From: Candidatus Altimarinota bacterium
GTDB lineage: Bacteria > Patescibacteriota > JACMRA01
Direction of reading: 5' to 3'
DNA: 34,340 nucleotides
NCBI GenBank assembly: GCA_012031925.1
Contig: JAAUSE010000008.1
Location: 1 to 34,340, forward strand
Under the pieces are notes generated by a model that worked only from the letters and a program-made list of their open reading frames with translations, was not told the origin of the DNA and did no database searches. This document shows, one piece after another, positions 14,255 to 34,340 of the stretch. The position numbers and the translations under genes are program-made. Position 1 is the first letter of the stretch. Each line of letters opens with the position of its first letter.

Positions 14255-14276
14255 TAGAGTACAATGATGTACTCTA
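14255..14276 (+). repeat. Perfect palindrome across the start of the unknown gene
   Basis: TAGAGTAC and GTACTCTA flank a six-base centre, so the inverted repeat overlaps the two candidate ATG codons at 14264 and 14267. It could be an operator or an mRNA hairpin masking the start. It could also be chance. Confidence 0.5.
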
Positions 14277-15391
14277 AATCTATTATACTTTTGTATTTTG
14301 ATACACCACCTACCCATAAATTACCCTTACCTTCTCTTTACAATAATCAAAATCTTATCTTTTTAAGTGATATGACCCTTGATCTAATAAAGAGATACCA
14401 ATCGCTTGGAGTAGACGATCCTGCTAATGTAGTAGCCCTTAACATGTCCAAAAGATGGCTTGGAGAAGTTTCTTTTCCTTTCATCTTTGAAGCCTTCAAA
14501 TACTTAACTACATATGGTTACGGTAAGTGTGGCACAGGACTAGAAATGTTCACTGTACTAATCTACTTTGGCTCCTTAGTAAAATACTCTGTCAAAGATA
14601 TTATGCTAAGTAGTACCATTGATCATATTGATAGTAGTAATAGAGCTATCGTTAGGACAGTACCTAATTGGCCTAGTACTCAAAAAAACTACCAAAAGTT
14701 TGCTAACAATTCTGATCTTCTTAGATTGGGGCTTGAATTACAAGTAGGTTTAGGTTATTCTAGATTTACACAATCTCTAGTTGAAGAATTCAAATATGGA
14801 GGAAATAGGTGGGATGAAGAGACTATTAATGAGATCAAAGAAGAAGGTTTCAAACCAACCAAATTTCTCAACCATGGTCAAGAAATAGCTCAACTATTCC
14901 TAGATATTCTCAAAGAAATGGACAAACAAGAGTTTGAAGACTATGCCAAAACTATCAAGCTTGGTCTACCTGATATGAGATACTTTATCTCAGACGGGTA
15001 TGATCAAAATGATGAATCTAATGATTTTGCTTTACCTGACAATATTGAAGGAAAAGCTTTTGGATTGTTAAAAGGTGATAATCGATTAATATATGATAGG
15101 CAATTAGCTGAACACCAAGAACTCTACCAAATCTTCCAAGAGATCTACAACTGTATTGGTTTTCGTTTTCGATTAACAAGCACAGATGACATTGGAGTCT
15201 ACAAGTACTCTGGTATCTATCAAGGAAGATTAATCACTGGTCTAATCAACCAAAGTGATCACTTCTGTCAACTCAATACCATAAGTGACTTCACAGGAAT
15301 ACTCAGACCAAGATCTGATAAAGAAGATGGCTCAATCCAATTTGATTTGATTCATGTTCTCAGACTTGGAACAGATTACCATGGGGGTTAG
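14264..15391 (+). CDS. Unknown protein, 5' part duplicated in inverted orientation
   Basis: A 375-residue soluble protein that I do not recognise. It has no signal peptide and only short hydrophobic patches. Its helix-rich central part contains many charged segments (such as EFKYGGNRWDEETINEIKEE). Tandem ATG codons at 14264 and 14267 are possible starts, and TATAGT at 14244-14249 could serve as a -10. The duplicated copy at the window start begins at the equivalent of the ATG at 14372, which may therefore be an alternative start. The 225 bases 14371-14595 are repeated there with a single-base gap. The gene sits in a mobile-looking stretch between murD and a structured inverted repeat, so it may be an accessory or horizontally acquired gene. 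Confidence 0.6.
   Translation: MMYSKSIILLYFDTPPTHKLPLPSLYNNQNLIFLSDMTLDLIKRYQSLGVDDPANVVALNMSKRWLGEVSFPFIFEAFKYLTTYGYGKCGTGLEMFTVLIYFGSLVKYSVKDIMLSSTIDHIDSSNRAIVRTVPNWPSTQKNYQKFANNSDLLRLGLELQVGLGYSRFTQSLVEEFKYGGNRWDEETINEIKEEGFKPTKFLNHGQEIAQLFLDILKEMDKQEFEDYAKTIKLGLPDMRYFISDGYDQNDESNDFALPDNIEGKAFGLLKGDNRLIYDRQLAEHQELYQIFQEIYNCIGFRFRLTSTDDIGVYKYSGIYQGRLITGLINQSDHFCQLNTISDFTGILRPRSDKEDGSIQFDLIHVLRLGTDYHGG
14371..14595. repeat. Near-perfect inverted repeat of window positions 1-224
   Basis: These 225 bases equal the reverse complement of 1-224 except for one extra T at 14486-14488. The copies are 14 kb apart and head toward each other. The repeat starts one base before the ATG at 14372, and its far end is cut by the window edge. 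The near identity means a recent duplication, gene conversion or an assembly artefact. Confidence 0.9.
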
Positions 15392-15415
15392 TCTGTTTTG
15401 GAAAAAAAATGTGTG

Positions 15416-15644
15416 AGATTGGTTAAAACAGTTGCACTAAGAACCAATCTAAATTCTTTTATCAAATTTATCCACATCCCTAAATCATTATAGGTTTGAA
15501 GTATATTGATTTTTGTATATAACTATCTAATATTGCACTAAAAATTTAACAATGTGGCTACGGCCACATCTTATAAATTGTTTAGTGAATCTAGATAGAT
15601 TTATGAATATGCCTAAATACTGAAAAAGAATTTAGATTGGTTCT
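15416..15644. repeat. Nested inverted-repeat element, non-coding
   Basis: The 333-base gap 15392-15724 has no gene but is highly structured. A perfect 21-base inverted repeat (15440-15460 with 15624-15644) encloses 163 bases. At the centre lies a perfect hairpin ATGTGGC-TACG-GCCACAT (15552-15569), flanked by an imperfect extended stem of about 30 bases on each side. The outer arm is itself preceded by AGATTGGTT (15416-15424), which pairs with AACCAATCT inside it (15442-15450). It resembles a MITE-like element or a long structured RNA. No transposase is nearby and no target duplication is visible. Confidence 0.65.
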
Positions 15645-15684
15645 AATGGTTTGAAAAAATACCAAGCAAGTTCTTAAAACCTAC

Positions 15685-15705
15685 AAAAAAAGCACATTTC
15701 TGTGC
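15685..15705 (-). terminator. Rho-independent terminator
   Basis: On the minus strand GCACA-GAAA-TGTGC (15705-15692) with a GAAA tetraloop, followed by seven T. It ends the transcript of the gene at 15725-16096. Confidence 0.75.
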
Positions 15706-15724
15706 CATCTGTTTAGTCAATTTG

Positions 15725-16096
15725 TTACATCCCCATTGCCTCAAAATTTGATTGAACGGGTTTGGTAATATCGTTTTCCTTACGAAAATAATACTCCCTA
15801 TAAAATTCAACAGAATTATCAAAACCAGCTTGAATAATCTGACTAACTAACTCAGCTTTTATCCCACACACAAAAACTTTTGAGTACTTTCCCGAATTAA
15901 TTAGGTTAATTGCCTTTCTGGTATAGTCATTAGAGTTTTCTTCCTCACATAACTCGTCCAAACGAACAATTTGATATTTCGCACCTATTACTGCTCTTCT
16001 AGCCAAAGTTATTCTGCCTAGAATTAATCCTTTTGGAGATGAATTTTTGCCAATCTTCCAAAACATCTTCCCATTTAGGTAATCTTTCTTATCCAT
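15725..16096 (-). CDS. Hypothetical soluble protein
   Basis: A 123-residue protein that I do not recognise. AGAGGTG lies a few bases upstream of the ATG, a good ribosome-binding site. The sequence alternates strands and helices (KGLILGRITLARRAVIGAKYQIVRLDEL; KYSKVFVCGIKAELVSQIIQ), which suggests a small alpha/beta fold, possibly Rossmann-like, with no nucleotide-binding loop to name. There is no signal peptide or membrane segment. It has its own terminator and stands alone between the structured repeat and purC. Confidence 0.6.
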   Translation of the reverse strand: MDKKDYLNGKMFWKIGKNSSPKGLILGRITLARRAVIGAKYQIVRLDELCEEENSNDYTRKAINLINSGKYSKVFVCGIKAELVSQIIQAGFDNSVEFYREYYFRKENDITKPVQSNFEAMGM

Positions 16097-16321
16097 TACA
16101 CACCTCTAACTCAATTACAAAGTAATTCTCTTACTTATTTTATTCAAATTGTCAAATAAACTTTTTTCTAATAAAAACTTATCATCCAGTTGAGGATAGT
16201 GTTTAGGAATCTAATAGAATATTAGGTACTTAAGTGTTTAGTTAATTGGTTAGAAAATATGTCGAATGTTGACAAAACAACCAATCTATGATTTTAGCAT
16301 AAATAGTTTTGAGGAAAAGAA

Positions 16322-17287
16322 ATGAACCCTATAGAAATATTTAGAACCAATTTTGAGTTTCCTAATCAAACAAGGTTTTATAGAGGAAAGGTAAGGGATG
16401 TCTACGTAATAAAAGATAAATATTTGGTTTTGGTGAATACTGATAGAATATCAGCCTTTGATCAAGTTTTTTGGCAAACAATAAAATACAAAGGTTGTAT
16501 CCTCAATCAAATATCTAATTTTTTCTTTGAATATACGTCTAATCTTCATCAGAATTGGGCGATCACTTCCCCACATCCTTGTGTCACAATTGGACATTAT
16601 TATGCTAGATTACCTTATGAATTTATTGTTCGTCAGCATTTGGATGGATGGGTTTGGAAAGAATATCACCGTGGAATTAGAAGGTTCTGGAATGTTATAC
16701 TTCCTAATAATCTTGAGCGATTCTCAGCTCTACCTAAATTAATTTTTTCAATTACCACGAAGTCTCAATCAGGAAAAGACATACCAGTTTCCTACAATAA
16801 AGTTTTTTCTGAAGCTTATCTAAACCGAAATGAGTTGTATCAAATTAGGGAAATATGCTTTGATCTTTTCCAAAAAGCCTCTAACTTTTATTCTCAAAAA
16901 AATCTTATTTTGGCAGACACCAAATTGGAGTTATCTAAGGACAAAGTAATTCTTGATGAGATTTTTACTCCAGACTGCTCTAGATTGTATAATGCTACCA
17001 ATTATAATCAGAGGTTACAAAAAAGACAAGAAGTGGAAAACTTTTCTAAAGAGGTTTTTAGAAAAATACTGCTGGATTCTGGTTTTGACCCTGTGGAGCT
17101 TGTTAATAAAGAAAACCCTTTACCCTCTATTAGTATTTCGCAACGTCAACTAATCAGCCAAAAATACTCTCATGTTTACAAATCAGTATTTGACAAAGAT
17201 ATTTCTCAAAACAATCCACAAATGTTTAGTTCAAGTATTCTACAAGATATCTATCAATCAACTTGTGAGGCACTAAAAAATCTCTAA
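16322..17287 (+). CDS. purC: SAICAR synthetase homologue (PurC)
   Basis: PurC ligates aspartate to CAIR with ATP in step eight of de novo purine synthesis. The signatures are visible: YRGKVRDVY (20-28), DRISAFDQVF (41-50), a PYEFIVRQHLDG stretch, LADTKLELS and DEIFTPDCSRLY. In textbook form the last two are ADTKFEFG and DE..TPDSSR, so several positions are relaxed. The length, 321 residues, is in the eukaryotic/long bacterial range. TTGAGGA precedes the ATG by seven bases; a TTGACA lies at 16269-16274 without a good -10. A strong terminator follows. No other purine gene is nearby, which is unusual because most Patescibacteria lack the pathway. Confidence 0.88.
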   Translation: MNPIEIFRTNFEFPNQTRFYRGKVRDVYVIKDKYLVLVNTDRISAFDQVFWQTIKYKGCILNQISNFFFEYTSNLHQNWAITSPHPCVTIGHYYARLPYEFIVRQHLDGWVWKEYHRGIRRFWNVILPNNLERFSALPKLIFSITTKSQSGKDIPVSYNKVFSEAYLNRNELYQIREICFDLFQKASNFYSQKNLILADTKLELSKDKVILDEIFTPDCSRLYNATNYNQRLQKRQEVENFSKEVFRKILLDSGFDPVELVNKENPLPSISISQRQLISQKYSHVYKSVFDKDISQNNPQMFSSSILQDIYQSTCEALKNL

Positions 17288-18307: not shown

Positions 18308-19003
18308 CTATGGTAAGACTATAATCTTTGGATTGTAACCAGTTGATAGACTATCTGTGATCTCTGTGTAGAGATCCCACAAATCATACCATCCTAGTCT
18401 AACACAACCGTGTGTTTCATACCTTGGTACGATGGTTTTTGGCGGAGGGTTACACCCTTTGGATATTCCTGCAGGATCCTTTCCAAAATAATCTACTGAA
18501 TTAGAAGACTGGAAATAATTATCAACGCCCAGAGAGTTGCAAGTAACTATTTCACTATGAAACGCATTCACGAAACCCTTTGAGTCGATTTTGCCAGAAT
18601 TTTTTACGAAAAACATTGGTAACCAATTGGCTTTGTGAGGTGAGCCCCACGCTGTCAACTGATTGACTTGTTTGGGTATTTTTTTGCCATTTACTTCACC
18701 ATATTTTTTTGGCATAGCAAAGCCATATTTGTTTTTTTGGCATAGCAAAGATTGAGTTTGCCTATTACACCAAGGCAAAAACTCAATTCCTAGTGTATAC
18801 TCACCAACTGGAATCAAATGAGATTGGTTCCTTTTTGGAGTAACTGCTTTGTAGGTTCTTTTAGAACCGTCAAGTTTTTGCAAAGTCACTTTTTGGGCAA
18901 GCTGATCAATAGTTATTGTAAGAGCCTGCGAGGCCTCAGCCAAAACAAAACTACTCACAAAGACACCAATAGCAGTCGACAAAAACAGTATTGACTTTTT
19001 CAT
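18308..19003 (-). CDS. Secreted L,D-transpeptidase (YkuD family)
   Basis: The ATG at 19003 is chosen because AGAGGA lies eight bases upstream and the product then starts with a signal peptide (MKKSILFLSTAIGVFVSSFVLAEA, cut near 26). That gives 231 residues; an extension to 19096 would cross the promoter. Domain features are PVGEYTLGI (65-73), TAWGSPH (118-124), FHSEI (148-152) and the catalytic THGCVRLG (197-204) with Cys200. It is transcribed with the same polarity as its paralogue but is separated from it by a terminator, and each has its own ribosome-binding site. It probably acts on the wall outside the membrane. A 28-base partial tandem duplication (18704-18750) lies in the middle of the gene. 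Confidence 0.9.
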   Translation of the reverse strand: MKKSILFLSTAIGVFVSSFVLAEASQALTITIDQLAQKVTLQKLDGSKRTYKAVTPKRNQSHLIPVGEYTLGIEFLPWCNRQTQSLLCQKNKYGFAMPKKYGEVNGKKIPKQVNQLTAWGSPHKANWLPMFFVKNSGKIDSKGFVNAFHSEIVTCNSLGVDNYFQSSNSVDYFGKDPAGISKGCNPPPKTIVPRYETHGCVRLGWYDLWDLYTEITDSLSTGYNPKIIVLP

Positions 19004-34178: not shown

Positions 34179-34340
34179 GGGAGTAACTCAAAAAGAGTGA
34201 ACCAAAATCAATTAATTACTACTAAACTTATTTGTTCAAACATGCACTCGCTCAAACACATTCTGGAAAAGATGATCTAAATATGCTATGAACTCATAGC
34301 TAAAACAACTAAGAGAAATATCACCCCAGAATTATGTATG

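Follow-up and report, generated by a model that had tools for sequence, protein, structure and literature searches.

Bacterial genomes harbor several kinds of dispersed, hairpin-forming repeats that are moved in trans, like RUP, Correia/NEMIS, ERIC and the Nezha-type MITEs. These are similar in size to the element described here, mostly use a TA target, and some are tied to IS630-type transposases. Some IS5 subgroups produce 3-bp duplications. A published table includes ISs of 893-991 bp from the ISL2 and IS1031 groups (PMC3196728). Among the matches listed from the open-licence literature, no paper deals with MITEs in the bacterial radiation studied here.

The window, the whole stretch of 34,340 nucleotides analyzed, corresponds to contig C24 in a genome of 1.07 Mb and 51 contigs (assembly 80.6% complete). 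Based on our analysis, a long hairpin in this window is most likely a MITE that was moved by an IS5-type transposase, belonging to a family with 12 further diverged members placed in the same genome.

Results

The initial annotation described 21-base perfect inverted repeats around 163 bases, with a perfect stem-loop at their center, in a non-coding region. All of this was borne out, with the arms at 15440-15460 and 15624-15644 and the stem-loop as given in Table 1. No perfect inverted repeat within 300 bases elsewhere in the window is longer than these arms; when the window was shuffled 30 times in two-base blocks, the longest was 11-14 bases. The pairing continues, at 75%, to a length of 57 bases per arm. 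The predicted RNA fold of 15410-15650 has an energy of -69.2 kcal/mol (z -7.3), with none of 200 shuffles equally low. Reading frames overlapping the element are at most 31 aa long, save for one of 59 aa that reaches just into its last base. The element sits between the convergent ORFs 14264-15391 (plus strand) and 15725-16096 (minus strand), neither of which has a match in Pfam or NCBIfam.

Table 1. Features of the putative MITE and its edges in the window
Feature	Position	Strand	Remarks
Putative MITE, 203 bp, GAACC...GGTTC	15441..15643	none; family orientation is minus strand	identical copy at a second locus, diverged copies elsewhere
Terminal inverted repeat GAACCAATCTAAATTCTTTT	15441..15460	+	20-bp perfect; variant of family end GAACCTGTCTAAATTC
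Terminal inverted repeat, opposite end	15624..15643	-	20-bp perfect
Putative target-site duplication TAA, left copy	15438..15440	.	flank comparison
Putative target-site duplication TAA, right copy	15644..15646	.	flank comparison
Apical perfect stem ATGTGGC-TACG-GCCACAT	15552..15569	.	site of IS481-like insertion in second copy, CTACG duplicated
Subterminal block TAAATTCTTTTTCA-N3-TTTAGG-N-ATAT	15607..15634	-	common to other copies, at one end only; genome search and alignment
Internal block ACTAAACAATTT...TTTTTAGT	15537..15586	-	common to C40, C7 and C21; 78% over the stretch; search and alignment

The motif AGATTGGTT had been noted three more times near the element. Two of those occurrences, at 15416 and 16279, are indeed additional, but the one at 15442 is the arm itself. 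Counting both orientations, the motif occurs six times in the window (15416, 15442, 15634, 16279, 18821 and 23889) versus about 0.43 expected from base composition; the places at 15442 and 15634 are the arms, and those at 18821 and 23889 lie inside ORFs. A terminator-like hairpin with a T-run adjoins the element at 15691-15706, between the convergent genes. Further on, a TTGACA just upstream of a SAICAR synthetase gene (16322-17287) is enclosed by another AT-rich inverted repeat (ATTGGTT...AACCAAT, 16246-16286), which could be an operator or chance. The domain scan also found a match to T4SS_pilin (PF18895), a domain typical of patescibacteria; together with the small size of the genome, this makes the lineage probably a patescibacterium.

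A search of the genome with 205 bases containing the element returned C12:128-250 and C51:206-292, both at 100%, plus weaker places. The two halves match the window over 122 and 86 bases with no difference, and each runs from an outer end of the element to the central loop and then into the end of an IS481-like element. Their lengths add up to 203 + 5, the surplus 5 bases being CTACG, duplicated by the IS481-like insertion. The IS481-like element is present in multiple copies at contig ends. Because 5-bp duplications likewise pair three further sets of contig ends (TGAGC, AACTA and GGGTT), C12 and C51 very probably join across it, making a second locus with an identical 203-bp copy cut in its loop. 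Outside the TAA, the flanks of the two loci are unrelated (37% and 30% alike over 60 bp). Judged from sequence, the identity of the two copies implies recent movement. When the outer flanks of C12 and C51 are joined with one TAA, an 85-codon open frame results with the junction at about codon 51, which is suggestive only as a trace of the empty site. Family matches of the restored frame all fall below threshold (RuvA_C, E 0.17; ruvA TIGR00084, E 0.023), so this frame is perhaps no real gene.

The last bases of the window (34243-34340) form one end of this IS481-like element, and the contig therefore breaks off at a repeat. In four of seven B-end junctions of this element (contig ends C36, C50, C17, C33, C37, C19 and C51), TTGACA or TTGACG directly follows the duplication, and two of the four have TATAGT or TACAAT 17 bases further. 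The IS481-like element may target promoter -35 boxes.

Beyond the identical second copy, searches with patterns for the subterminal block and the ends, with an internal-block query and with a covariance model located 12 diverged family members of 43-250 bp elsewhere in the genome (C15a, C15b, C15c, C40, C7, C21, C41, C28, C45a, C45b, C31 and C50). The upper length includes the 80-bp C15b nested inside C15c, and partial or weak copies include C16, C44 and C29. The initial annotation had named a single copy with no conservation and no transcript as the outcome that would speak against its element; several copies were found, and on copy number and conservation the element was not refuted. Against a mixed core query of 106 bases, C40 and C7 both reach 95-96% identity. 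The covariance model, built from four copies, identified 10 places at E <=1.3e-4, four of which are its own training copies. The copies lie in varied contexts, including between divergent ORFs, between convergent ORFs and beside tRNA genes.

Most family members end in GAACCTGT at one or both ends. The window copy ends in GAACCAAT, of which five letters match the ends of the resident IS5-family ISs exactly with variant letters after; GAACCAATCT is found at both of its ends and GAACCTGTCT or GAACCTATCT in many other copies. Allowing at most one mismatch, the end AGAACCTGTCTA occurs at 24 places and a reversed control pattern at 12, and about half of the 24 may be chance. Solitary ends from this list (e.g. 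C17, C42, C51 and C9:2622) were left out of the element count.

The window copy is flanked on both sides by a 3-bp direct repeat. Across 16 elements, the MITEs plus two ISs, identical 3-bp flanks directly at the edges (register 0,0) are present in eight and a perfect duplication is absent in the other eight; for the MITE rows alone, the count is 7 of 14. One listed row, the inner element of C50, is left out. The duplications are TAA four times, ATA, AAA, TCT and GTA. Each of 35 shifted registers gave 0 or 1 element with a 3-bp duplication. With a chance per site of about 0.02 the binomial tail is 3e-10, a figure that is approximate as the edges were placed manually, guided by alignment to GAACCTGTC (GAACC/GGTTC homology), with the flanks already seen. 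The contrast between registers is the stronger point.

The genome encodes two full-length IS5-family ISs, on C9 and C39, with GAACCTGT at both ends of each. The C9 element (C9:40317-41203) is 887 bp long with a 12-bp perfect terminal inverted repeat (GAACCTGTTTAA) and a duplication, GTA/GTA, of the same length as those of the MITEs. Its gene pieces match DDE_Tnp_1, DUF4096 and NCBIfam transpos_IS5_3, and the gene has one in-frame stop. The C39 element is 911 bp long with an 18-bp perfect terminal inverted repeat (GAACCTGTCGAAAATCTC) and imperfect flanks (ACG/ATG). Its 277-aa protein exceeds the curated IS5_3 cut-off (157.1 versus 110 bits), is 33% identical to that of C9, and has a Tyr in place of the presumed first catalytic Asp of the C9 protein. 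Both transposases look defective. By blastn against loci covering part of the genome, the C9 IS and the MITEs have no interior in common. An IS with exactly the GAACCAATCT ends of the window subfamily, as opposed to GAACCTGTCT, was not seen in the 80.6% complete assembly. The transposase for this subfamily may be encoded in the missing fifth of the genome or in another strain, or may have been lost.

Plasmids and phages gave no match to the 205-bp element, and viral contigs had none to the strict subterminal pattern. In genome contigs that pattern had six scattered matches in unrelated groups, which we take as chance. Five other genomes of the order and class had no convincing family match. 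One of five genomes of the order did give a match (37 bp, 84%, E 8.4e-5), which upon viewing the locus was read as AT-rich chance and rejected. The covariance model matched two of 286 genomes of the phylum, its own and G125 (E 8.7e-4 per genome); the latter is marginal, as chance alone would give about 0.25 hits of this kind across 286 genomes.

Discussion

The MITE-like element was the option in the initial annotation that held up: the element is multi-copy, has terminal inverted repeats and 3-bp duplications, and two relatives that encode a transposase have similar ends. The window hairpin is a self-contained unit of 203 bp, bounded by 20-bp perfect ends, with an identical copy at an unrelated site. 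Half of the family has 3-bp duplications, and the resident IS5-family ISs end in GAACCTGT as most family members do. Taken together, we regard a MITE moved by an IS5-type transposase as very likely. Under this scenario, an IS5-type transposase acting in trans would bind the GAACC(TGT/AAT)CTAAATTC ends, cut the MITE out or copy it, and insert it at a staggered 3-bp target, often TAA or TTA. The long hairpin would then be a by-product of the inverted ends and an imperfect internal symmetry rather than a selected RNA.

It is improbable, if the best of the alternatives, that the MITE belongs to another transposase family like the IS630/Tc1-mariner type with its TA target. In that case the same ends would be recognized, and TAA or TTA would consist of a duplicated TA and one letter from the end of the element. 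TA does flank several copies, and an IS630 transposase (DDE_3) is encoded at C40:194-616 with further fragments at other contig ends. However, the resident IS630 elements end in TACCCAAMCCACA (junctions in C42, C13 and C1) and not in GAACC, there is no TA in the duplications TCT and AAA, and at register 0,0 a match of 2 bp is found in 3 of 16 elements versus 8 of 16 for 3 bp. The presence of GAACCTGT on two IS5-family ISs also argues against an IS630-type origin. IS630 had looked promising as a partner from TGTCTAAATTC just before the DDE_3 start codon at C40, and was dropped because its own ends, taken from other copies of it, are not those of the MITE. Pieces of the IS630-family element with TACCCAAMCCACA ends are present at C40:1-1084, C3:869-1050, C42, C13 and C1, and in the C40 copy the reading frame is broken into two parts.

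A selected structured RNA or a bidirectional terminator between convergent genes, with the repeats forming a host regulatory family, is more doubtful still. The strong fold in the window, the position between convergent ORFs and a terminator-like hairpin with a T-rich tail on the minus strand (15570-15551) speak in its favor. However, the window has no Rfam 15 match above gathering score, and the fold is uneven across the family: z is -6.9, -9.9 and -7.0 in C24, C15a and C28 but -1.8, -1.4 and -1.1 in C40, C7 and C41, and for the inner part alone +0.3 (C40) and -1.3 (C7). With several diverged copies folding no more stably than their shuffles, selection for an RNA is unlikely, and the structured-RNA option of the initial annotation is not supported. 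The consensus fold of four copies (RNAalifold) has a covariation term of +0.62 and double changes in only three pairs, which lends no support to a conserved RNA fold. The variety of gene contexts also speaks against this reading, the separate hairpin at 15691-15706 already resembles a terminator, and mobility is needed in any case for the same sequence to sit at unrelated sites between target duplications. It is possible that some copies are used as terminators. A site for replication, recombination or attachment (an attC-like, dif-like or origin-like palindrome), also raised at the outset, is hardly credible. Beyond the mobility of the element, only the long imperfect palindrome with its asymmetric interior recalls one. 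Fixed ends with 3-bp duplications, dispersed copies of unequal length (43-250 bp) and one copy nested in another do not fit site-specific recombination, and no integrase match was found among ten scanned ORFs around the window copy.

With the IS5-type MITE as the preferred explanation, the family is new but of a known kind, an ordinary element type in a little-studied lineage. The lineage would thus carry an IS5-type MITE population, the assembly is broken by IS481- and IS630-like repeats, and the hairpin can be explained without a new RNA. A more elaborate picture, which we consider speculative and rather unlikely, is of a small reduced genome with a varied and recently moved MITE population, comprising subfamilies of different lengths and one nested copy, in which the IS5 transposases found look broken. 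A transposase supplied from outside the cell line, by a host, a plasmid or a strain variant, would perhaps mobilize the population, with some hairpins now acting as terminators or promoter-side spacers.

RUP, Correia/NEMIS, ERIC and the Nezha-type MITEs resemble the window MITE in size, hairpin formation and dispersal, and differ from it in their mostly TA targets. With respect to the IS5 family, both partner ISs match the NCBIfam model transpos_IS5_3, whereas the window element is without a transposase. Bacterial IS5-related MITEs are the closest comparison. Unlike in those, the interior of the window element is no visible deletion product of the C9 IS, and the search for a functional transposase whose IS has exactly the window ends yielded none. 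Like those, the window family is short and non-coding, has terminal inverted repeats similar to those of resident IS5-family ISs, and is present in several copies with 3-bp duplications and a nested insertion.
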